Below, piece by piece: positions 1 through 35,735 of a stretch of DNA of 35,735 nucleotides (positions are counted from its first letter, which is position 1; each line of letters starts with the position of its first letter). The stretch spans positions 1-35,735 of the forward strand of contig JACWAI010000039.1 of the NCBI GenBank assembly GCA_014874415.1, in the 5' to 3' direction. The notes under the pieces were generated by a model that did no database searches, was not told the origin of the DNA, and saw nothing but the letters and a program-made list of their open reading frames with translations. The position numbers were made by a program, and so were the translations under genes. The DNA is from Nitrososphaerales archaeon (GTDB lineage: Archaea > Thermoproteota > Nitrososphaeria > Nitrososphaerales > Gagatemarchaeaceae).

Positions 1-995
1 CAGTCGCTCACGTCCCTGAACTCCGTTATCGAAAGCAGCGGCACCGCCTTCAGGTAGTCCTCGAGCAGCTCCTTCTCCGTGGGCCTGTAGTACGAGTCGG
101 AGATCCCTATCGAGTGCCCCATCAGCATCTCCACGTTCGCCGGCTTCATCACCTGCTCCGCCTGCGTCTTGAACCACTTCCGAAAGCCGTGGGCGGCCTG
201 GAAGTCGTACCTCCGCCTCCTCTCCGTCCTGAGCCCGGACTTCGACAGTATCCTGCAGAACTCCCTCTCCACGAAGTCCGAGCGGAACCTCTTCACGACC
301 GACGCCGTCCCCTTCCGCCCTCTCGAGACCGCGAACTCGTCCCTGATGACAGGGGCGTCAGCCCTGACCGCCTCCCCGTGGAACCTCCTGTACTCCAGGT
401 ACTCCGAGAAGACGCCGTATGCCTCCGGGGTGACGAAGGTCAGGTACTGCTCCGGCTCCCCTTTGTACACGGTGACCCTCCCCGCCACCACCACCTCCCC
501 GCTCATCACCGGCTCCACGTCCCTCACGGAGAGGTAGTCCCAGGCTCCCACGCGGATCCCGCCCGAGGCCATGAACTCTGCCGCCACCTTCATCCTCAGG
601 GTGCAGAGGTTCAGTATCCTCCCTATCTCCTCTCTGGAGGGAGCCCTGTCGTTGGCGTACTTCCTCCCCTTCGGCAGGAGCTTCGAGAGAAGACCCCACT
701 CAAGCCTCAGCCTGTTCATCACGCAGTATAGCTTGATGGGCATCACCCTGCCCCGGACGTACCCCTGGGAGATCTCCCCCCTCTCCGCCCTCCCCTTCAG
801 GCTCGCGATGTAACCTGCCACCACGTCCTCCGCCTTCTCCGGGTCCCTCCGCGCCAGCTCCACGAATGCCACGTTGGACATGCCTGCCCGCTCGAAGAAC
901 ATCTTCGCCGCGTTGACGTACAGCTCCCGGGTCTGCCTGTTGGGGACGGCTGCCTCGAACCTGACCCAGTCGGGCGAGTCGGTCGCGACTTTCAA
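1..995 (-). CDS. Tyrosine recombinase / integrase (C-terminal end beyond left edge)
   Basis: Site-specific recombinase expected to join and cut DNA at an attachment site through a 3'-phosphotyrosine intermediate. 331 residues are visible. The N-terminal ~115 residues look like a helical SAM-like core-binding domain, and the catalytic domain follows. The catalytic set is readable: Arg148 in GGIRVG, a probable beta-hairpin Lys178, His269-x-x-Arg272 in HGFRKW, His294 in MGHS, and Tyr303 in SYYRP exactly nine residues later. The TTG start is chosen because a strong GGAGGTGA ribosome-binding site lies seven bases upstream. Only the extreme C-terminus is missing. The protein resembles the XerC/D-like integrases of archaeal integrated elements. 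Its neighbour at 1093-2094 is a truncated ATPase gene, so this end of the window is probably the edge of an integrated element extending to the left. Confidence 0.88.
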   Translation of the reverse strand, partial: MKVATDSPDWVRFEAAVPNRQTRELYVNAAKMFFERAGMSNVAFVELARRDPEKAEDVVAGYIASLKGRAERGEISQGYVRGRVMPIKLYCVMNRLRLEWGLLSKLLPKGRKYANDRAPSREEIGRILNLCTLRMKVAAEFMASGGIRVGAWDYLSVRDVEPVMSGEVVVAGRVTVYKGEPEQYLTFVTPEAYGVFSEYLEYRRFHGEAVRADAPVIRDEFAVSRGRKGTASVVKRFRSDFVEREFCRILSKSGLRTERRRRYDFQAAHGFRKWFKTQAEQVMKPANVEMLMGHSIGISDSYYRPTEKELLEDYLKAVPLLSITEFRDVSD

Positions 996-1002
996 CGTAG
1001 GC

Positions 1003-1010
1003 TCACCTCC
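1003..1010 (-). promoter_or_regulatory. Shine-Dalgarno site of the integrase
   Basis: GGAGGTGA on the minus strand, seven bases before the TTG at 995. It is a near-perfect anti-16S match and fixes the start. Most other genes here lack such a strong site. Confidence 0.75.
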
Positions 1011-1015
1011 GCTCC

Positions 1016-1024
1016 TGATATAAC
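1016..1024 (-). promoter_or_regulatory. TATA-like box before the integrase
   Basis: GTTATATCA on the minus strand, centred about 25 bases before the TTG start. Archaeal TATA boxes usually lie about 26 bases before the transcription start, so the leader would be very short and might not include the ribosome-binding site. A different transcription start is possible. Confidence 0.4.
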
Positions 1025-1092
1025 GGCCAAGCCCGGCAGTTGATTGCCAAAATAGCTGCCCGACTCGTCCGCGCTCGAGTTTGGGTTAGTGG

Positions 1093-2094
1093 TCATGCGC
1101 GGCAGTGAGGGGAGAAAATATCTGAAACCATTGCGATGTGCTCCACAGGGTCAGAGCCCGGCCCCATCTCCAGGGGGTTCAAGGAGAACTCGTCCTTGCC
1201 AGGCGCGAGCACCTTCCCCCCAGCGCCGGTGATCGTTGAGGAATACTCGTTGTGCCAGTCAAGGACAAGGGTGGGGAGGCCCAGCTCTGCGACCTGCCGC
1301 ACGATCGACTGGGCGGTGTTCGACTTCCCGGAGCCAGTCATCCCTAGCACGCTCACGTGCCTTTTCAGGTCGTCCACCTGAAGCCTGAAATCGTGATACT
1401 CTCTCCCGGCTGATTTCACCGGGCCGAGCAGGATTCCCTCGCTTCCAGATTCCTCTGCGTTGGGTATGTAGAATTCGGGCGACGGCGCAAGGCTGGCTGT
1501 GACGGGGGACATCTCGTCGAAGGTGCAGAGGGCACCCGCAACGGCGGGGGTGGCTGCCTGGGGGAGGGTCCGCATGCCTGGAAGGAGCGCAGATTTCACG
1601 AATTCAGAGAGATCCCTCCTTGCGAGCCTCACCACGGTGGCGGTCGGAAGGGCGACGCTCAGTGTGGCGGAAAGGATGCTCGCCCTCTGCTCGATAGCCT
1701 GGGTCCCGTCTTCCTTTTTCTTGATGTCGACCCACGTCCCGATGACGAGGTCGAACTCGAGCAGGGGCTTCTCCGCTTCCCGCCCTTCGGCTTCGTTCAT
1801 GAGCATCAGGTAGATGAAAGGGACCCCTGACCTACGTAGCCCTTCGAACAGCCCGTGCATCCTCTGCTGTTGGAGCGTTGTCTTAAGCGCGGCCGAGTAG
1901 TCGGACCTCGGGTCCTCGGAGAGGTCGGGGACGCCGACCCGGTACAGCGCCATGCAGCGGACCTTGGAACCGTTCGAAGCGACGACGTACTTTCCGTCCG
2001 CTATCCTCAGGTCTTCGAGGCCGATCCCTGTCTGAGGCCATAGTCGCCATGCTGCCCGTGAGACTAACTCTCGCGCGGGGTGCAAATGGCTCAC
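1093..2094 (-). CDS. Truncated HerA/VirB4-like ATPase
   Basis: Resembles HerA/DUF87-type hexameric ATPases that translocate DNA or power secretion and pilus machines. The GTG start at 2094 overlaps the upstream pilin stop (GTGA), suggesting translational coupling; an ATG at 2148 would overlap the pilin by 58 bases. From the GTG, the N-terminal ~230 residues are poorly recognised. The ATPase core then begins, with Walker A GMTGSGKS at residues 251-258 and an LVLDWHNEY strand near 276-284. The frame stops after SDIFS, about 95 residues past Walker A. The usual Walker B, sensor and arginine-finger regions are absent, so it should not be a working ATPase. The integrase lies immediately downstream, suggesting the 3' part was displaced by an insertion. 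Its original role was probably in the pilus locus it adjoins. Confidence 0.7.
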   Translation of the reverse strand: MSHLHPARELVSRAAWRLWPQTGIGLEDLRIADGKYVVASNGSKVRCMALYRVGVPDLSEDPRSDYSAALKTTLQQQRMHGLFEGLRRSGVPFIYLMLMNEAEGREAEKPLLEFDLVIGTWVDIKKKEDGTQAIEQRASILSATLSVALPTATVVRLARRDLSEFVKSALLPGMRTLPQAATPAVAGALCTFDEMSPVTASLAPSPEFYIPNAEESGSEGILLGPVKSAGREYHDFRLQVDDLKRHVSVLGMTGSGKSNTAQSIVRQVAELGLPTLVLDWHNEYSSTITGAGGKVLAPGKDEFSLNPLEMGPGSDPVEHIAMVSDIFSPHCRA

Positions 2095-2300
2095 CAGTGG
2101 AACAGCGACCCGAATATGCTGTTGAGGGAGCTCGTGATCGAGTTCCACACGTTAGATGTATACTGGGCGCTCTGGTTGAGGATGGACTCGATCCCTCCCA
2201 CCAGAAGGGAAAGGGCCACCAATGCCACGGAAAGCAGCAAGGCTTCTTCGATGAGCTGGGCCCCCCTCCGGCTTATCTTGAGCCTTCGACCTAACCGCAT
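2091..2300 (-). CDS. Small type IV pilin-like protein (class III signal peptide)
   Basis: A 69-residue probable structural pilin. A basic N-terminus (RRLKISRRGA) leads into QLIEEALLL and a hydrophobic helix to about residue 37. Class III archaeal prepilins are cut just before a Gln with Glu at +5; cleavage between Ala14 and Gln15 puts Gln at +1 and Glu at +4 and +5. The helix would form the filament core. The remaining ~30 residues are a short polar tail rich in Ser, Asn and aromatic residues. The gene lies directly after the two TadC-like genes and has its own TATA-like box, as expected for an abundant subunit. The exact cleavage site is inferred. Confidence 0.72.
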   Translation of the reverse strand: MRLGRRLKISRRGAQLIEEALLLSVALVALSLLVGGIESILNQSAQYTSNVWNSITSSLNSIFGSLFHW

Positions 2301-2320: not shown

Positions 2321-2330
2321 CTATTTAACG
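2321..2330 (-). promoter_or_regulatory. TATA-like box of the pilin gene
   Basis: CGTTAAATAG on the minus strand, centred 26 bases before the pilin ATG at 2300 and overlapping the stop codon of the upstream TadC-like gene. It suggests the pilin can be transcribed on its own, with a leaderless message. Confidence 0.5.
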
Positions 2331-2956
2331 CCCCACAGGCTGACCGCGGGAACGCCGGCAAGGGGGGACGCCAAAGAGCTCACAAGTGCGTAGACGGCAA
2401 GTGACGCCAGCACGTTGACATAGAAACGCCTGCCAGACATGAAGAGCCCGAGCATGGTGGAGCTGATGGCGTCGAAGCCTGCCGCCCCGTACAGAAGCGA
2501 TACCTGGCTCCCATGAGAGGCGCCGAACAGTCCCAGGCTCCCAATCACCGGCCCCAGCGAGGCCATCATCGCAGTGACAGCGCCGAGCACGGCCGAAGTG
2601 ATGACGCTCCTGAAGCTCTGCACCTTCTGTTCCAGTTTGCTGTTCTCCCTTGCCTTTACCCAGCCTTCTAGCGTGCCTGCGAATGCCTTCCCGTTTCTCC
2701 CGATGGATGCCGAGCTGCTGCTGGGAGCAGAGACGATAAGCGAGGCAAGCATGGAGACCTCCTCTGATTCTCCTTCCGTCATTGGACCGAGCGAAATGCG
2801 CAGCGGGTACCCCAGCAGCAGGAGCCGTGCCGTCTCGCTCCCCTGGGGCCGGACCTGCCTAAGCTCCTTGACGAGGGACCTGGCCATCCCCATGCCGTCG
2901 CTCGCAGATTCAAGGACGCGTCCAAGGGAGTGGATGGCAGTTAGGTCAGGGTTCAT
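2321..2956 (-). CDS. TadC/GspF-like pilus membrane protein, second half
   Basis: A 211-residue inner-membrane platform protein. The N-terminal ~120 residues are cytoplasmic and helical, including GMGMARSLVKELRQ. At least three hydrophobic segments follow (about residues 120-145, 150-172 and 178-205). Archaeal TadC/FlaJ proteins usually carry two GspF-type domains in one chain of roughly 500 residues; here they appear as two consecutive genes of 232 and 211 residues. The ATG overlaps the stop of the preceding gene by four bases, consistent with coupled translation of two halves of one platform. Assignment rests on context, size and hydrophobic pattern rather than a diagnostic motif. Confidence 0.62.
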   Translation of the reverse strand: MNPDLTAIHSLGRVLESASDGMGMARSLVKELRQVRPQGSETARLLLLGYPLRISLGPMTEGESEEVSMLASLIVSAPSSSSASIGRNGKAFAGTLEGWVKARENSKLEQKVQSFRSVITSAVLGAVTAMMASLGPVIGSLGLFGASHGSQVSLLYGAAGFDAISSTMLGLFMSGRRFYVNVLASLAVYALVSSLASPLAGVPAVSLWGVK

Positions 2957-3651
2957 CCTGGTCCCCTATCGGCGGCGCTGAAGTAGAACGCCAGGTCGAC
3001 GGCGACGAACTCGAAGGCGGCAAGCTCCGCCAAGGTGGTCGGGTCATAGGAGTGGGTGAATACCGCGTAAAGGACTAGCATTATCGGGGTGAAGAAGCAC
3101 ACTGTCATGAACATGGGGAGCTTCGTTTCCCTGCTGAGTTCAGATGAACTGGCCAGACCTCGGGACTCTTCATCCCTTCCCTCGAAGTCTCTTTGGCTCA
3201 TCGCTGCGATGTTGAGGAGGGCGGTGGCCGCGGAGTACGAAGCCAGGCTCTCCGAGGCCTTCGCGACGGCGCTTTGCACCCTTGACCCGAGGAGGACCAT
3301 TCTGCCTGCGTCCGACGCGGTGGCCGCCAGCGTAGGGTCTCGGGGACGGAGCAGGATCAGAGTCTTGGCCCTCGACCCCGTCACTCCCAGGCAGGCTGTC
3401 GCGGAAGCCGCGATTAGCAGCGATTCCCGGGCCTGGGCAACTCGCTGCCTGTCGAGGACGCGCCGGGGCATGGACAGGACGATGTAGAATACGAGCGTCG
3501 CGATGACCAACAGCGTGGGAGCCCTCGCCTGCCCGAGAGAGTCACCCACTACAAGGCCCACAAGGGTCGCCGTCAGAAATGCGCACGCCGACCCGAGGGC
3601 GACGATCCTCCAGAAACCTACGCCAAAATGGTCCAGCGACGCGAATCTCAA
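2953..3651 (-). CDS. TadC/GspF-like pilus membrane protein, first half
   Basis: A 232-residue membrane protein with two hydrophobic segments near the N-terminus (about residues 14-36 and 44-60), a cytoplasmic helical region of about 110 residues with a GspF-like stretch (AVAKASESLASYSA), and C-terminal hydrophobic segments around residues 178-195 and 207-225. It lies between the TadA-like ATPase, whose stop its TTG start overlaps by four bases, and the second TadC-like gene. ATPase followed by TadC is the usual order in archaeal adhesion-pilus operons. It probably pairs with the next gene product to form the platform that couples ATP hydrolysis to pilin insertion. A frameshift splitting one ancestral gene is possible, but the overlap is a clean stop/start junction. 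Confidence 0.62.
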   Translation of the reverse strand: MRFASLDHFGVGFWRIVALGSACAFLTATLVGLVVGDSLGQARAPTLLVIATLVFYIVLSMPRRVLDRQRVAQARESLLIAASATACLGVTGSRAKTLILLRPRDPTLAATASDAGRMVLLGSRVQSAVAKASESLASYSAATALLNIAAMSQRDFEGRDEESRGLASSSELSRETKLPMFMTVCFFTPIMLVLYAVFTHSYDPTTLAELAAFEFVAVDLAFYFSAADRGPG

Positions 3652-5096
3652 ACATGCGCACCAACCAGGTGGGTCAACTTCTCCATGGCGAGGTCCGCCC
3701 TCCGCTGCAGCCTGTCCGCGTCCACCCCGTCAGGCGGGAGCGGCCACCCAATCCCTGCGACGTTGCGTAGCTTCAGGTCCCTGCCGCGGACAAAAATCTC
3801 CTTCAGCCTTGGCGCGCCGCCTTCATCTCTGACTTGGCAGATCCTCTGGACGTATCTGCTCTGCCTGAGCCTGTCTGGCCTCGCCATCTGAACCATGATG
3901 CCGAGGTCGAGGAGGCTCTGTTCCGCGATGTGATGCATACCCGTCCACCTCCTTACCGCCTGCTCTATCGTAGAAGCGTGGAACGTCTGCATCCCCCTTG
4001 CCCCCGACGCGAGCGCCTGAAAGAACGCGCGGCTGTGCTCCTCAGATTGGATCTCGCTGAGGATGACGATGTCCGGAGACCTGTGGAGCGCCTTCACTAT
4101 TTCAGACTCTTTTGTCCTCCCAGAATCATCCCCCCTTTCGAAGGGGTCTACCTTCACCTTCATCTGGTGGAACCCTAGGCCCAGCATGTCCCGAGTCTCG
4201 ACCGCGTCCTCTATGTAGAGGCGGCGCAGCCTCCGCTCGACCTGTTCGTCTAGGGCGTTAAGCAGAGTCGTCTTCCCCGTCCCCGTCTCCCCCACGATGG
4301 TGACGTTCCCGCCCACCTCCAGCCAACCGATGAGGACCACAGCCGCCTCGAGAGAGAGCACGCCCAGCTTGATTAATTGACCCAGGGGGAGGGAGGACAC
4401 GTTCAGCCTCCTCACGTCGAGGGCGAAGCGGTTCACCGAGACGGGCTCCAGGTCGAGGGACACCCTCAGGATGGCCCCGGCCACGACCATGTCGTTCTTG
4501 AGCGAGGGGGTCTTGAAATCAAGCGTGTACCCGCTGAAAGTGTCCAGGTGGGTTTCTAGCGCTGCCCTCTCTCTTTCTGTGAGGGTTATGCCCGACTCGC
4601 AGCGACCTGCCCCGGCGTGGTCCAGGTAGAGCGGTGTGAGTTCCGAGTCGACAAAGAACTCCGTGACGCGCTCGTCCTTGGCCAGGGCGAGGACCCTCGA
4701 AAGGCCAACGGCTTCGTAGGCAGCCAGCTCGGACAGCTCCCTTATCCTGTTCCTTATCCCCCTGGAGGCAAGGCTTTCGGCGGAATGCCGAGAAAGGACT
4801 TCGATGAGCCTCTGGAAGGTGAGGGGTTCGACCTCGCCGGGGTCCAGCCCTCGGGACACTTCGTCGACCGCCTCTCTCAGGGCCATCACGGTGTCCGTGG
4901 GCAAGGTACAGCATGCCTCGTAGTAGGGGACCGAGCTGTGGACCTCAACCCGGTAGGAAAAAGGATACCGCTCATATCCCGCGTCCCCTCTTCCGGCCTG
5001 CTTCGGGAACAGCTCGATCAGCAATGGGGGAGGTTCCGGGACGCGAGGTTTTCTCGCCGCCAGCCGGAGCAACATTGACTCCAGTCCTACTTTCAA
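3648..5096 (-). CDS. TadA/FlaI-type secretion ATPase for pilus assembly
   Basis: A cytoplasmic hexameric ATPase of the type II/IV secretion superfamily. In the frame beginning at 5138, Walker A GETGTGKTT is at residues 283-291, an Asp-box-like IEDAVETRD at 309-317, the Walker B strand DIVILSEIQ at 356-364, and a His box TFHAST at 385-390; the N-terminal domain covers about residues 20-250. Walker B has Ser-Glu where many relatives have Asp/Gly-Glu. The open frame extends to a TTG at 5138. TTG at 5096 (14 codons shorter) is preferred because AGGTGG lies four bases upstream and a TATA-like box lies 32 bases upstream, inside the longer version. It is the first gene of the minus-strand pilus operon. 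Confidence 0.86.
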   Translation of the reverse strand: MKVGLESMLLRLAARKPRVPEPPPLLIELFPKQAGRGDAGYERYPFSYRVEVHSSVPYYEACCTLPTDTVMALREAVDEVSRGLDPGEVEPLTFQRLIEVLSRHSAESLASRGIRNRIRELSELAAYEAVGLSRVLALAKDERVTEFFVDSELTPLYLDHAGAGRCESGITLTERERAALETHLDTFSGYTLDFKTPSLKNDMVVAGAILRVSLDLEPVSVNRFALDVRRLNVSSLPLGQLIKLGVLSLEAAVVLIGWLEVGGNVTIVGETGTGKTTLLNALDEQVERRLRRLYIEDAVETRDMLGLGFHQMKVKVDPFERGDDSGRTKESEIVKALHRSPDIVILSEIQSEEHSRAFFQALASGARGMQTFHASTIEQAVRRWTGMHHIAEQSLLDLGIMVQMARPDRLRQSRYVQRICQVRDEGGAPRLKEIFVRGRDLKLRNVAGIGWPLPPDGVDADRLQRRADLAMEKLTHLVGAHV

Positions 5097-5122
5097 CGCG
5101 CCACCTGACAATATGGCCCGGC

Positions 5123-5133
5123 GGAATAAAACG
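5123..5133 (-). promoter_or_regulatory. TATA-like box of the pilus ATPase operon
   Basis: CGTTTTATTCC on the minus strand, about 32 bases before the preferred TTG start at 5096. It would drive the ATPase, both TadC-like genes and the downstream genes. Confidence 0.45.
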
Positions 5134-5145
5134 ACCAAGGTGGGC

Positions 5146-5175: not shown

Positions 5176-5535
5176 ATGGCTGAGATTGTCGAGTACAGCC
5201 TCGTTGTCCTCGTCTCTGCACTGTTCGTGTCGGGCTCCGTCGTTGTCTACGGCTCGTTCACGTCGTTCGAGTCGGACCTCCAGCTCCGAGCTACCTACGC
5301 TGCAGTTTCGAACCTAGCTTCGCAGGCCGCTGAAAACGGAAGCGCCACGGCAAGCCTTTCGATGCAGGGGACGACCATCGGGTGCAGCGGGGACTCCTTG
5401 GTCGTCAGCGTCGGGTCGAAGGGTCTCGCTGGGAGCATCCCATCCTCCTGCGACTTCGTGCTCGACGTCCCTTCGGGCGTCCACGACCTTACATTCGAGG
5501 CCCTGGGCAAAGGGCTAAACCTCTCGGTGAGCTGA
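5176..5535 (+). CDS. Membrane-anchored pilin-like protein 1
   Basis: 119 residues, family not recognised. A short MAEIVEY leader precedes one hydrophobic helix (about residues 8-28), followed by an extracytoplasmic domain with two Cys (Cys73 and Cys96) that could form a disulfide. The layout resembles type IV minor pilins or archaeal secreted pseudopilins. The N-terminus lacks a strong basic prepilin cleavage motif, so it may instead be an uncleaved single-span anchor. First of five tightly packed genes divergent from the TadA/TadC/pilin operon; context suggests a pilus-associated subunit. Confidence 0.6.
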   Translation: MAEIVEYSLVVLVSALFVSGSVVVYGSFTSFESDLQLRATYAAVSNLASQAAENGSATASLSMQGTTIGCSGDSLVVSVGSKGLAGSIPSSCDFVLDVPSGVHDLTFEALGKGLNLSVS

Positions 5536-5536
5536 C

Positions 5537-5914
5537 ATGCCTGCCGCCTCAGTGGGTGCGACAAATTCGTGGGGCATCTATCTCATTGCCTCGGCCGTCT
5601 TGGTCGGTATCATGACCCCGCAACTCATGGGCGTAGCCGGGGACTCCCGCGAGGGCGCAGATTGGAGATGTGCAGACGGGGTACGGGCGGCCCTGGATGC
5701 CCTGCGCCCCGGTGTGACGATCGTGATGGCCTGTGAATCGTGGCCGGGAGGGGACCCAATCAAGCTCGGAGGCACGCAGGTGTCTGCAGCCTACGGGAGT
5801 GGCACAATTGTCTTTCCCAGCCGGTGGCGCCTCCCAAACGTAACCCTGGTTCCTTCCGCGACCTATCGCGCCTGGCTCGACGGGGCCCAAGTTCAGGTGA
5901 CCCCCATTGGCTGA
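5537..5914 (+). CDS. Membrane-anchored pilus-locus protein 2
   Basis: 125 residues with no recognised family. A hydrophobic segment covers about residues 13-34 (GIYLIASAVLVGIMTPQLMG), followed by a ~90-residue outside domain with two Cys (Cys45 and Cys65). It starts one base after the previous stop, and its own stop overlaps the next small gene by eight bases, so the cluster is almost certainly one transcript. The outside domain ends in a beta-rich stretch (TYRAWLDGAQVQVTP). It is probably a minor pilin or adhesin component; function is inferred from context only. Confidence 0.58.
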   Translation: MPAASVGATNSWGIYLIASAVLVGIMTPQLMGVAGDSREGADWRCADGVRAALDALRPGVTIVMACESWPGGDPIKLGGTQVSAAYGSGTIVFPSRWRLPNVTLVPSATYRAWLDGAQVQVTPIG

Positions 5915-6014
5915 GGTCGAAACCTATATCGACGTCGGAATCCTGTACTTCGTGATAATCGCACTTTCGCTCATCGCCCTTGCCATGCTCATGCCCGAGC
6001 TGCTCCCCAAATGA
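5907..6014 (+). CDS. 35-residue membrane peptide in the pilus cluster
   Basis: A TTG-started frame of 35 codons overlapping the previous gene by eight bases and the next by four (ATGA). It encodes a short acidic N-terminus (AEVETYIDVG), a single hydrophobic helix (about residues 11-31) and a Pro-Glu-Leu-Leu-Pro-Lys end. The overlaps on both sides and the clean membrane helix argue for a real gene despite its size. It could be a very short pilin-like core helix or a membrane assembly factor. No family is recognised. Confidence 0.5.
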   Translation: MAEVETYIDVGILYFVIIALSLIALAMLMPELLPK

Positions 6015-6373
6015 GATTCCTGGACCTAGGCTTGGCAGCACTGATAGGAGCCTCTGCCATAACGGGGATCGTGGCCTGGAACCCCACGGCGGGAGATTCT
6101 GCCGCGGCCTCTCTCGAGACGCAGAGCCATCTCAGGGACGACCTCCTAGGCCTGCTTCAAAGCCGAGGCATCATGTGGATAGCCTCCTCCACGCCCTCGG
6201 CCATATGCTCCTTCCTCGAATCGTCCTCGAACGCTTCGGTCGTCTATGGCGCAGCCATCGGCGGCCATGCATGCCCAGCAGCGCCTCCCCAGGGGCACGC
6301 CGCGGCCAACCTCACGCTCGAACTGATTCAGACAAGGGTGGTCCTGGAGGCATGGTCAGAAGGTCAGGGATAG
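6011..6373 (+). CDS. Membrane-anchored pilus-locus protein 3
   Basis: 120 residues. MRFLDLG is followed by a hydrophobic helix (about residues 6-23), then a ~95-residue outside domain with two Cys (Cys66 and Cys88). Each of the first two larger products in this cluster also has exactly two Cys in its outside domain, suggesting related disulfide-bonded minor pilins despite little visible sequence identity. The ATG overlaps the stop of the 35-residue gene (ATGA), and the 3' end overlaps the next gene by 22 bases. The family is not recognised. Confidence 0.58.
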   Translation: MRFLDLGLAALIGASAITGIVAWNPTAGDSAAASLETQSHLRDDLLGLLQSRGIMWIASSTPSAICSFLESSSNASVVYGAAIGGHACPAAPPQGHAAANLTLELIQTRVVLEAWSEGQG

Positions 6374-7143
6374 GCGCAACTTCTGCGTCCGCGGTGATCT
6401 TCTCGATCATACTATTGTCGAATTTCGCCGTGTACTTCGCTTCGCAGAGCAGGGAGAAATCGTACTTCCAATCTGATGTCGAGAACGCCTTCGTCGATTC
6501 TGCGGTCGCGCTTACGGGAGCCGGGGCAGCCGACATCCTCATGGGCGTCCAATCCTTCCTTGCTTCTAGGACCTTTGACTGCAGAGACGCAGTGGCGCAG
6601 GTGTCCAGTTGGGTCAACGGGACTTCCGCCTCCCAGAAAGATGGTGGCATTACGGTCGATGAATGGGTACAGGTGGCAGGGGCCGGACCGCCTCAGGACA
6701 ACCTCACCATGCTCGCCCCTTACAACGGCTTCTCCCAGGGGGGCCTCGACCTGGCCCTGAAGACTGAAGCCTTCGGATCTGACCCGGGGGCCGGGGTCTC
6801 GTATGCGAAGAACGAATCCCACATCGTCCATCTCCCAGTCAGGCTATGGGCCGAAGCGGCAGACTGCCTCCAAGGCGTGAGATACATCTCAGAGGAGATC
6901 GCATCCGAGAACGCAGCCAACTGCACGTCCTCGGAGGTGGCTCCGCTCATGCAAGCGGCTTCTCAGATTCCTGCCGGGGAAGCTTCCCGCGACAACTTCA
7001 CCTTCGGGCTGACCTACGACTTTGCCTATTCAGGCCAGTGCGTGGTACAATTCGACGTCTCCCTGACCCAGGGAGGAATCCTCGGCCCGGGAGGGACCTT
7101 CAGCGTGGCAGTGCAGGAAGCGGGGTCTGCAGCATTCGAATGA
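6352..7143 (+). CDS. Membrane-anchored pilus-locus protein 4 (large surface subunit)
   Basis: 263 residues from the ATG at 6352. The frame is open much further upstream, but that part overlaps the preceding gene, and this ATG directly precedes a typical anchor: basic MVRRSG, then a hydrophobic helix of about residues 10-29 (SASAVIFSIILLSNFAVYFA). The large outside domain has NxS/T sites (NGT, NLT, NES, NCT, NFT) that could be N-glycosylated, plus several Cys. It is the last and largest gene of the cluster and overlaps the convergent TFB gene by 44 bases. It could be the tip or adhesive subunit. No family recognised. Confidence 0.6.
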   Translation: MVRRSGIGATSASAVIFSIILLSNFAVYFASQSREKSYFQSDVENAFVDSAVALTGAGAADILMGVQSFLASRTFDCRDAVAQVSSWVNGTSASQKDGGITVDEWVQVAGAGPPQDNLTMLAPYNGFSQGGLDLALKTEAFGSDPGAGVSYAKNESHIVHLPVRLWAEAADCLQGVRYISEEIASENAANCTSSEVAPLMQAASQIPAGEASRDNFTFGLTYDFAYSGQCVVQFDVSLTQGGILGPGGTFSVAVQEAGSAAFE

Positions 7144-11383: not shown

Positions 11384-11404
11384 GATCGAGGGCATTGATA
11401 TCCG

Positions 11405-11491
11405 AGGTGGGGAGGGGATTCGAACCCCTGTTAATACGCTCGCTGACTCGCATCACTGCAGGCGTACGCGTAACCGCTCCGCCACCCCACC
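11405..11491 (-). tRNA. tRNA-Cys (GCA) with a 15-base intron
   Basis: Minus strand. A seven-pair acceptor stem (GGTGGGG with CCCCACC), a D arm with GCG/CGC, an anticodon stem TACGC/GCGTA, a five-base variable loop (TTAAC) and a T arm AGGGG-TTCGAAT-CCCCT are all readable. The anticodon stem encloses 22 bases instead of 7. Reading C-T-GCA-G, removing about 15 bases after position 37 and rejoining A gives a normal loop with anticodon GCA. The discriminator base is U, as usual for tRNA-Cys. CCA is not encoded. The intron sits at the usual archaeal 37/38 position, where splicing endonuclease cuts a bulge-helix-bulge; the exact boundaries may shift by one base. Confidence 0.88.
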
Positions 11492-33222: not shown

Positions 33223-34083
33223 TTGTCCGCCCGCGCCCCCCTGAGGTTCATCGGACTTGGTGGAGGAGACAGCATTAGACCGAAGATCGCCTCGACCATC
33301 AAGGAGATAGAGTATCACAGGAAGGAGCTCGAGAACCTGCGACTGCGTTTGGAGCAGAGGCGCAAGGCGCTCTTCGACACGACGGTCAAGGCGATGATGA
33401 CGAAGGATGACTCGAAGGCGACGGTGTATGCGAACGAGTGGGCCGAGCTCAGGAAGGTGGGGAAGGTGGTCTACGCCAGCGAGCTGGCCCTGACTCAGGT
33501 CGTCCTCAGGCTTGAGAGCATCGTCGACGTGGGCGACGTCATGGCCCACATGAGCACCGCCTTCAAGGTGTTACGGAAGGTGAACAAGACTGTCCAGGGC
33601 CTCGTCCCGTCTCTCGACCAAGCTTCCGACGACATCAACAACGCGCTATCCGAGACCATGGTGGGGATGGGGAACGTCTCCCCTTCGATCTCGCTGAACG
33701 TGCAGACAGGGAGCGGCGAAGAGATAGTCGAACAGGCGCGGAAGCTTGCCGAGGAGAGGGCCGAGGAGATGAAGCGCACGCTCATGGTGTCCCCCCGCAC
33801 CATCCAGCGGGAGGCGCCCGGGTTCTCACCGAGGGTCGCCCTTCTGGAGGGGATGGGGGAGGACGACGATGCAGACGCCATCCTGGGGACAATCTACCAA
33901 CCGAAGCCGGCCGAGGACACCGAGGAGCAGGTCCTCAAGTACGCGGCGATCCACAACGGCAACGTCGACATAACGGACGCCTCGACAGTCCTCAAGATGC
34001 CGTCGGACGAAGTGGAACAGGCGATGCTCACGCTGATGGCCCGGGGCAAAGTCAAGGTCAACGAAGGAGTTTCTGAGAAATGA
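33223..34083 (+). CDS. cdvB: CdvB, ESCRT-III-like division protein with winged-helix tail
   Basis: 286 residues from a TTG; the frame is closed by a stop 24 bases upstream, so this is its first usable start. The ESCRT-III core covers about residues 18-185 with helix 1 (IEYHRKELENLRLRLEQRRK) and the paralog-shared YANEWAELRK block. A Pro-containing linker (about 190-230; SPRTIQREAPGFSPR) could hold the MIT-interacting motif for CdvC. Residues ~233-286 form a small winged-helix domain (EQVLKYAAIHNGNVDITDAS, DEVEQAMLTLMARGKV), the part that in known CdvB binds CdvA. It overlaps cdvC by four bases (ATGA). No cdvA is in the window. Confidence 0.92.
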   Translation: MSARAPLRFIGLGGGDSIRPKIASTIKEIEYHRKELENLRLRLEQRRKALFDTTVKAMMTKDDSKATVYANEWAELRKVGKVVYASELALTQVVLRLESIVDVGDVMAHMSTAFKVLRKVNKTVQGLVPSLDQASDDINNALSETMVGMGNVSPSISLNVQTGSGEEIVEQARKLAEERAEEMKRTLMVSPRTIQREAPGFSPRVALLEGMGEDDDADAILGTIYQPKPAEDTEEQVLKYAAIHNGNVDITDASTVLKMPSDEVEQAMLTLMARGKVKVNEGVSEK

Positions 34084-35735
34084 GCGTCGTCGCGGCGAAG
34101 GAGCTTGAAGACGACGCCAAGAAGTACGCCTCCGAGGCGATCAGGCTCGACTCCCAGGGCGCCCACGGGATGGCCATCCAGATGTATCAGAAAGCCATAT
34201 CCACCCTTGTGAAACTCGTCCACCTTTACCCCGACTATCGGCTCAACAAGCAGTACACCGAGCGCGCCATGGCATACCAGGAGAGGGTCAAAGCGATTCA
34301 ACAGGCCCACGGCCTGCTCCCCCCGGACCAGGCTCCCGAAATGGACTGGACACCACCTGCTGCGAACGGCAACGGAGTGGGCATCAGCTCAAACCAGAAC
34401 TCCGCGAAGGGGCCCCAGGTGGTGCAGCAGCTCAAAGCCTCCTTCAGCGAGCTCGTGATAACAGAGAAGCCCGACGTGAAGTGGGACGACGTGATAGGCC
34501 TCGAAGACTGCAAGATGGCGATACGCGAGTCCATAGTGTTCCCATTCCTGCGGCCGGATCTGTTCAAGCTAGGATGGCCCAGGGGAATCCTACTTTACGG
34601 GCCGCCCGGCTGCTTTGATGAACAAACGGAGATCCTCACCAAACAGGGCTGGAAGAAGCACACCGAACTTGCCGACGACGAGGCCGTGGCCACGCTCAAT
34701 CCCAGCACGAACGAGCTGGAGTACCACCCGATTGTAAGAAAGATCCAATATCACTACGAAGGCAAGATGTACCACCTGGAGTCTACCCAGGTTAGCCTGA
34801 TGGTGACACCGGACCATCAGCTCTGGGTAGGGAAGAAAGCGCAGCAAGGGAAAGTGAACTACGACTTTGCACACCCCAACGAGGTGTTTGGAAAGGGCAA
34901 CGGCACGACCTACCCCTACTACAAGAAAGATGCCAGGTGGTGCGGTATCAACAGGGAATTCATACTTCTGCCCCAGCGCGAGGAAGGGAGCGGGCCGAGG
35001 CACAAGAAGATCAGGATTCCGATGTCCGAATGGGCCCCTTTCTTCGGACTGTGGCTGGCCGAGGGTTACACAGCGTACAGCGGGGGCAATTATCACGTCG
35101 GGATCAGGAATTTCGACCAAAGCCTGCTCGACTTCGCGTACGACAGCTTCAAGAGGTGGGGGCTGAATCCGCATTACTCGTCGGACGGACGCGTGACCGT
35201 CCTCAACAAACAACTGTACGAGCTTCTCCGCCCAATTGGCGACAAGTACACCAAATATATCCCAGCCGAGATCAAGAACCTCCCCCCAACGTTCCTACGG
35301 AGCATCTTAGAATATTACGCGAGAGGCGATGGGATTCACGAAGACGACGAAGCCGAGGTAGGCACCACCAGGGTGCGTTGCCAGACTTCCTCGCCGCGCC
35401 TCCGGGACGATCTGATGGAGCTGGCGCTCAAGGCGGGCCTGGCGTGTAATTACGTGGTCCACACGGAGGCCGGTTCCACAGCCACCATTGTTGGGACGGA
35501 CGGAAACGAGAGGACGATTACTCGGACGACGGCGAACTACAGGCTGAGCATCCTGTACCGCAGGGGCGAAACAAGGGTCGACAAACCCAGCTTGGAACAG
35601 TGGGAGGACTACTCGGGGACGGTCTGGGACGTGACCGTCCAGAATCACGTCATCTACGTTAGGCGCAACGGCAAGGCGATGTGGAGCGGCAACTGTGGGA
35701 AGACGATGATCGCAGCGGCGACCGCTGCCGAAATC
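34080..35735 (+). CDS. cdvC: CdvC, Vps4-like AAA ATPase interrupted by an intein (3' end beyond window)
   Basis: 552 codons visible and open to the right edge. Residues 1-~75 form an N-terminal MIT domain (AKKYASEAIRLDSQGAHGMA, YTERAMAYQERVKAI) that binds ESCRT-III tails. A linker (~80-130) follows, then the AAA start VKWDDVIGLEDCKMAIRESI and RPDLFKLGWPRGILLYGPPG. Exactly inside Walker A, after GPPG, the frame enters a 361-residue intein (residues 178-538) and resumes with CGKTMIAAATAAEI, restoring GPPGCGKT. The mature ATPase would disassemble ESCRT-III polymers. The ATG overlaps the cdvB stop, so the two are translationally coupled. It cannot hydrolyse ATP until the intein splices out. Confidence 0.93.
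   Translation, partial: MSVVAAKELEDDAKKYASEAIRLDSQGAHGMAIQMYQKAISTLVKLVHLYPDYRLNKQYTERAMAYQERVKAIQQAHGLLPPDQAPEMDWTPPAANGNGVGISSNQNSAKGPQVVQQLKASFSELVITEKPDVKWDDVIGLEDCKMAIRESIVFPFLRPDLFKLGWPRGILLYGPPGCFDEQTEILTKQGWKKHTELADDEAVATLNPSTNELEYHPIVRKIQYHYEGKMYHLESTQVSLMVTPDHQLWVGKKAQQGKVNYDFAHPNEVFGKGNGTTYPYYKKDARWCGINREFILLPQREEGSGPRHKKIRIPMSEWAPFFGLWLAEGYTAYSGGNYHVGIRNFDQSLLDFAYDSFKRWGLNPHYSSDGRVTVLNKQLYELLRPIGDKYTKYIPAEIKNLPPTFLRSILEYYARGDGIHEDDEAEVGTTRVRCQTSSPRLRDDLMELALKAGLACNYVVHTEAGSTATIVGTDGNERTITRTTANYRLSILYRRGETRVDKPSLEQWEDYSGTVWDVTVQNHVIYVRRNGKAMWSGNCGKTMIAAATAAEI
34611..35693 (+). mobile_element. Intein with LAGLIDADG endonuclease in the CdvC P-loop
   Basis: 361 residues, Cys1 to Asn361, followed by Cys+1. 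Splicing block A is CFDEQTEILT; block B has VTPDHQ with Thr66-x-x-His69; block F covers SGTVWDVTVQNHVIYV with His346; block G ends MWSGN. The penultimate residue is Gly360 rather than the usual His, a known but less common variant. The homing-endonuclease domain shows two LAGLIDADG-type helices: FFGLWLAEGY (144-153, Glu151) and LRSILEYYARGDG (229-241, Asp240), so it is probably able to home. Boundaries are set by restoring the Walker A motif in the host. Confidence 0.93.

Follow-up and report, generated by a model that had tools for sequence, protein, structure and literature searches.

A truncated CedD/HerA-like ATPase gene beside an integrase in a Gagatemarchaeaceae archaeon: a probable insertion site of large integrative elements

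What cut short an ATPase gene next to an integrase at the end of an archaeal contig, and what would such a break mean for the host? We examined 35,735 nucleotides (the window) from a Nitrososphaerales archaeon of soil or acid sites. The window is the entire contig C21 (JACWAI010000039.1) of a 1.69-Mb, 114-contig metagenome-assembled genome (MAG; GCA_014874415.1, here G000); C21 ends at position 1, so the assembly holds nothing further left. We find that positions 1 to 1110 are very probably the integrase end of a large element, site-specifically integrated at TTCTCC within a CedD/HerA-like ATPase gene that it inactivates and that excision could restore. The evidence comes largely from relatives in the family of Ca. 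Gagatemarchaeum stordalenia, the Gagatemarchaeaceae (PMC10640624), and all junctions were read from assembled contigs of MAGs. The features at the break are as follows.

1 to 1110, minus strand: probable element-derived DNA, the integrase-side end of an integrated element, truncated where the contig stops at position 1 (the sequence departs from the ATPase family beyond the core; same layout in relatives G022 and G023)
3 to 995, minus strand: tyrosine recombinase (integrase) with a TTG start; 331 residues are preserved and the C-terminal tail is lost at the contig end
1003 to 1010, minus strand: putative Shine-Dalgarno sequence GGAGGTGA of the integrase, read from the sequence
1017 to 1032, minus strand: element-end signature GCTTGGCCGTTATATC, a TATA-like 16-mer located by exact match search
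1111 to 1116, minus strand: attachment (att) core TTCTCC, encoding F-S of the motif SDIFS
1111 to 2094, minus strand: N-terminal half of the CedD/HerA-like ATPase (N-terminal domain and Walker A), from profile matches and sequence

The ATPase frame runs on the minus strand from a GTG at 2094 to a stop at 1093. It is of the HerA/DUF87 type (PF01935, E 3e-17), contains Walker A, and ends as SDIFS-PHCRA-stop, where PHCRA represents five unrelated residues encoded by the element. An initial annotation had described a HerA-like frame recognizable through SDIFS and then a short unrelated tail, and this description holds, with TTCTCC at 1116-1111 marking the transition. The family yielded 24 orthologues, within the genus and in other genera; all have full or nearly full length, intact ones reaching about 562 residues from the common alignment start, and none ends at the same residue. 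In these, SDIFS continues SDIFSDIYHFTHPQAYMF..., that is, D(I/V)YHFTHPQAYMFRNALQ, to the Walker B-like VEEARN. Because they run on past this region, the frame has no natural end at SDIFS. The break site falls within a motif, SDIFSD.YHFTHPQAYMF, that is nearly invariant in the orthologue comparison, and in the predicted structure of the intact ATPase it would lie inside a helix (297-312), ahead of the Walker B strand (435-439).

The integrase begins at a TTG (995) about 115 bases downstream of the core, on the same strand and with its own ribosome-binding site (GGAGGTGA), much as first annotated (about 100 bases past the ATPase). Its family matches are weak (Pfam PF00589, E 0.001; PHROG 1, integrase, E 9e-6); the catalytic set R..H-x-x-R..H..Y can be read from the sequence, and its orthologues have 363-384 residues. 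Of 151 genomes of the order, 3 contain the exact 16-mer GCTTGGCCGTTATATC, every time at the ATPase/element junction, with no match for a reversed-pattern control; it is probably the integrase promoter. Three matches to the 16-mer in viral contigs had no integrase nearby and were taken as chance, and scans of viral contigs with integrase and VirB4 queries gave no matches. We considered and rejected a suicidal (SSV-type) integrase, since the integrase starts about 115 bases past the core and its counterparts in G022 and G023 are unbroken. Elsewhere in the order, related integrases (L157, L161, L162, L163 and L168) are found near tRNA genes (for Asp, Lys, Arg, Ile and Arg, respectively), so the ATPase-targeting clade seems to have switched target.

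The far boundary can be followed in two relatives. In both G022 and G023, the ATPase is broken at the same residue as in G000, with an orthologous integrase directly downstream (74 and 67% identical, respectively) and co-directional with the cut operon, as it is in G000. In G023, the C-terminal half (C3:466931-467689) lies 91.5 kb from the N-terminal half on a single 1.1-Mb contig; in G022, it is a separate half-gene (C5:94490-95254). The core TTCTCC is present at both junctions of each genome and starts each C-terminal half, which supplies the direct repeat that the initial annotation had suggested seeking around 1095-1140; the intact G020 gene has a single copy, at codon 308. The G023 junctions read GACATC-TTCTCC-CCTATGCG on the N side and CTAGG-TTCTCC-GACATCTATC on the C side, and TTCTCCGA at the G022 junction is in common with G023. 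Relatives without the element have an uninterrupted ATPase gene. The contig comparison thus establishes the site, the core and, in the relatives, the far boundary; the window itself has no second boundary. Separately, a contig of another genus (G067:C10; L182, L136) that carries an ATPase C-terminal half begins exactly at TTCTCC, pointing to a further insertion without proving it; five copies of VirB4 are present in that genome.

The same gene has also been entered at a second site. In G024, a 78.4-kb element with the direct-repeat core TGGCACA interrupts it at LDWH|NEY. The G024 integrase is about 35% identical to that of the window and sits at the other end of its element, in the opposite direction; recurrence at two sites with divergent integrases is thus evident from the assemblies. 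When the two halves are rejoined in silico, G022, G023 and G024 each yield an open 562-residue frame without a stop, the same length as intact G020 from the same position. Near the far end of the G023 element, opposite the active-looking integrase, is a 44-residue integrase remnant (L072:1808-1939) that is 77% identical to the G024 type, suggesting an earlier or exchanged integrase.

Insertion appears not to have been a single event. In the ATPase gene tree (INDEPENDENCE and selection analysis), the broken copies are scattered: the partner of G023 is intact G025 (99/95), that of G022 is intact G001 (98/93) and that of G000 is intact G010 (86/84, below the starred level); the position of G024 was not resolved. 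The broken copies are on separate branches, and there has therefore been repeated insertion or repeated loss. The ratio of nonsynonymous to synonymous substitution (dN/dS) between the broken halves and their nearest intact copies is 0.02-0.13, within the range of intact pairs, so that no decay of the halves is apparent. These low values are compatible with recent as well as with reversible insertion.

The gene contents of two of the elements match Thaumarchaeota-type integrative-conjugative elements (ICEs). The G023 and G024 elements are oppositely oriented, yet about 26 genes are collinear between them, including VirB4 (89%), a FlaI/TadA ATPase (91%), T2SSF-like, VirD4/TraG-like, TFIIB, ArdC-like and pilin genes. 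ParB is recognized in these elements by resemblance only. Their GC content is 58-59% compared with 62-66% in the host flanks. The G023 element also has genes for a family B DNA polymerase and molybdenum hydroxylase. The G024 element carries a DISARM DrmA-type defense gene (L077:6752-9862, minus strand; PADLOC PDLC02573, E 1.5e-268). By analogy, the window element is most likely an ICE like its relatives.

The target is the last gene of a conserved chromosomal operon for a Tad-like type IV pilus, which the window retains upstream of the break.

2091 to 2300, minus strand: small pilin-like (Tad/Flp-like) gene that overlaps the start of the ATPase; its counterparts in about 20 relatives (62-84% identical) also adjoin the ATPase
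2321 to 2956, minus strand: TadC-like membrane protein 2, from operon position and conserved synteny; no significant curated family match
2953 to 3651, minus strand: TadC-like membrane protein 1, on the same grounds; no significant curated family match
3648 to 5138, minus strand: type II/IV secretion (FlaI/TadA-type) ATPase, first gene of the interrupted operon (T2SSE, E 3e-18; FlaI and TadA NCBIfam matches; synteny)
5176 to 7143, plus strand: pilin-like genes in divergent orientation (5176-5535, 5537-5914, 6011-6373, plus a fourth frame that stops at 7143), from open reading frames conserved in relatives

At empty sites, the order TFIIB - divergent pilins - TadA - TadC - TadC - pilin - ATPase, followed by kinase - msrA, is conserved in about 20 genomes. 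Of the NCBIfam families, CedD matches the intact ATPase best (NF053655; E 1.3e-51 over the ATPase domain, 176 bits, against 57 bits for HerA), and among the genus members searched in which the gene is intact, nearly all have this ATPase as their strongest CedD match. Pfam DUF87 and Foldseek matches to HerA and VirB4 likewise indicate a HerA/VirB4-type ATPase domain. The Foldseek matches came from a structure model with a predicted local distance difference test (pLDDT) score of 81; an earlier model from 8 sequences (pLDDT 54) was not used. CedD is essential for DNA import in Saccharolobus (PMC11868833), and it is plausible that the target ATPase also imports DNA.

These observations suggest how the break would work. 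Site-specific recombination at TTCTCC would place the element inside the ATPase gene; because the insertion separates Walker A from Walker B, the motor would be inactive. Precise excision would give an uninterrupted gene again, since the 6-bp core is duplicated and both halves are kept. We infer that excision occurs in nature, that the elements may turn off DNA import (or pilus function) and restore it by excision, and that inactivation may benefit the element, for example by blocking its removal through recombination with imported element-free DNA. A bolder proposal, which we regard as speculative and improbable, is that archaeal conjugative elements convergently and reversibly inactivate a host DNA-import motor, with host induction of the pilus operon reading through the truncated ATPase gene into the integrase, causing excision and thereby bringing import back, as a counterpart of the comK prophage switch.

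Several observations weigh against an ICE-type element in a DNA-import gene of this host. Neither the ATPase C-terminal half nor the neighboring downstream msrA was found in G000, and for this reason we infer the left boundary there from the relatives. The initial proposal that an element entered the ATPase gene, with its integrase at this end and the remainder to the left, is supported by those relatives; the body of the element was not found in G000, and the Walker B half expected at its other end was located in G023 and G022. VirB4 was found neither in the G000 assembly nor in that of G022 (64% complete). The only ICE-related trace seen in G000 is a 156-residue fragment on contig C28, and the visible element ends in G022 (L082, L081) carry CysK- and cystathionine-synthase-like genes, insertion sequence (IS) transposases and a catalase-peroxidase gene. 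The core is short, at only 6 bp. The ATPase resembles CedD of the Ced system of Sulfolobales (PMC11868833) in its best family match, its HerA/VirB4-type motor and its nearby pilus genes (Ups-like), but its 176 bits are below the curated CedD cut-off of 600 bits, no N-terminal transmembrane segment was seen by eye in its N-terminal residues, and the operon showed no CedA or CedB. The C28 fragment (L178, 1291-1761, minus strand) is 74% identical to part of an ICE-associated protein and adjoins an IS transposase and molybdenum cofactor genes.

Alternative accounts of the break itself fare poorly. A naturally short ATPase, or a split two-gene form, would agree with the short frame seen in the window, but this is hardly credible given the full-length orthologues, which led us to reject natural truncation, and the truncated form is found exclusively beside an integrase. 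An assembly chimera or ordinary pseudogene formation is very improbable, even though the window is a MAG contig that ends within the integrase: the same junction is present in two other MAGs, one of them with the far junction on the same 1.1-Mb contig, and the 16-nt element-end motif is shared. Because the independent assemblies of G022 and G023 contradict an artifact, we rejected it.

It is quite possible, if somewhat less likely than not, that integration is site-specific but the choice of gene incidental, with conserved coding sequence serving as an attachment site and loss of the ATPase neutral or mildly costly. A site in a nearly invariant motif is expected of integrases that track conserved DNA, the related integrases of the order adjoin tRNA genes, which are also conserved targets, and G004 and G005 have close VirB4 homologues yet an intact ATPase gene. 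On the other hand, two integrase lineages strike two different sites in one gene, which is inactivated as a result; the insertions into protein genes that have been reported for Thaumarchaeota are, by contrast, 3'-distal. It seems unlikely that the element serves to turn the pilus/DNA-translocation system on and off reversibly, being excised when certain conditions arise. Precise restoration of the frame on rejoining, purifying selection on both halves, and a co-directional integrase directly downstream of the truncated operon in G000, G022 and G023 would all suit a switch. However, recent insertion explains the low dN/dS equally well, the att site fixes co-orientation without any need for selection, the G024 integrase lies at the other end in the opposite direction, and no excised form was seen among the assemblies.

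Integration into protein genes had been taken at the outset to be less usual in archaea. It is not rare in Thaumarchaeota, where 14 of 68 mapped elements are integrated in protein genes (Krupovic et al. 2019, PMC6563490); mid-gene inactivation is nonetheless a new feature relative to the 3'-distal insertions described in the passages of that paper drawn on here. According to the same passages, thaumarchaeal ICEs are otherwise alike: they have a tyrosine integrase, short att sites, VirB4 and VirD4/TraG-like ATPases, TadC/FlaI, pilins and TFIIB, with no relaxase recognized, and a DNA polymerase is reported for NitEve-E6, comparable to the family B polymerase of G023. The elements described here differ in that they lie mid-gene, inactivate their target, have a HerA/CedD-like translocase as that target, and use two sites in one gene; the host family is not mentioned in those passages.

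A close parallel exists among Bacteria, where prophages and islands disrupt the competence genes comK, comYC, comFA and comM (Croucher et al. 2016, PMC4774983), and where comFA has two insertion sites with integrases about 34% identical. Both cases involve repeated mid-gene insertion at orthologous sites, divergent integrases and two sites in one gene. Here, however, the host is archaeal, the elements are of ICE type rather than mostly prophages, and a role of the target in DNA uptake is conjectural. Mobile elements that break bacterial competence genes are a main argument that DNA uptake purges parasites (PMC4774983), and a single literature search on archaeal DNA-import genes disrupted by integrative elements found nothing relevant. 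If our interpretation is true, recurrent, convergent ICE-type insertion into a HerA/CedD-like translocase gene would extend the conflict between uptake and parasites to Archaea, and the Tad-like pilus operon would be a candidate DNA-exchange system in uncultured Gagatemarchaeaceae. The exact 6-bp site allows a search for excision in existing metagenome reads.

Elsewhere in the window, a tRNA call by ARAGORN at 11404-11491 (minus strand) has a four-base anticodon and is probably false or unusual. At 34080-35735 (plus strand), a Cdc48-like AAA ATPase frame, identified by eye and cut by the contig end, contains an apparent in-frame intein (PPG|CFDEQTE...SGN|CGKTM).
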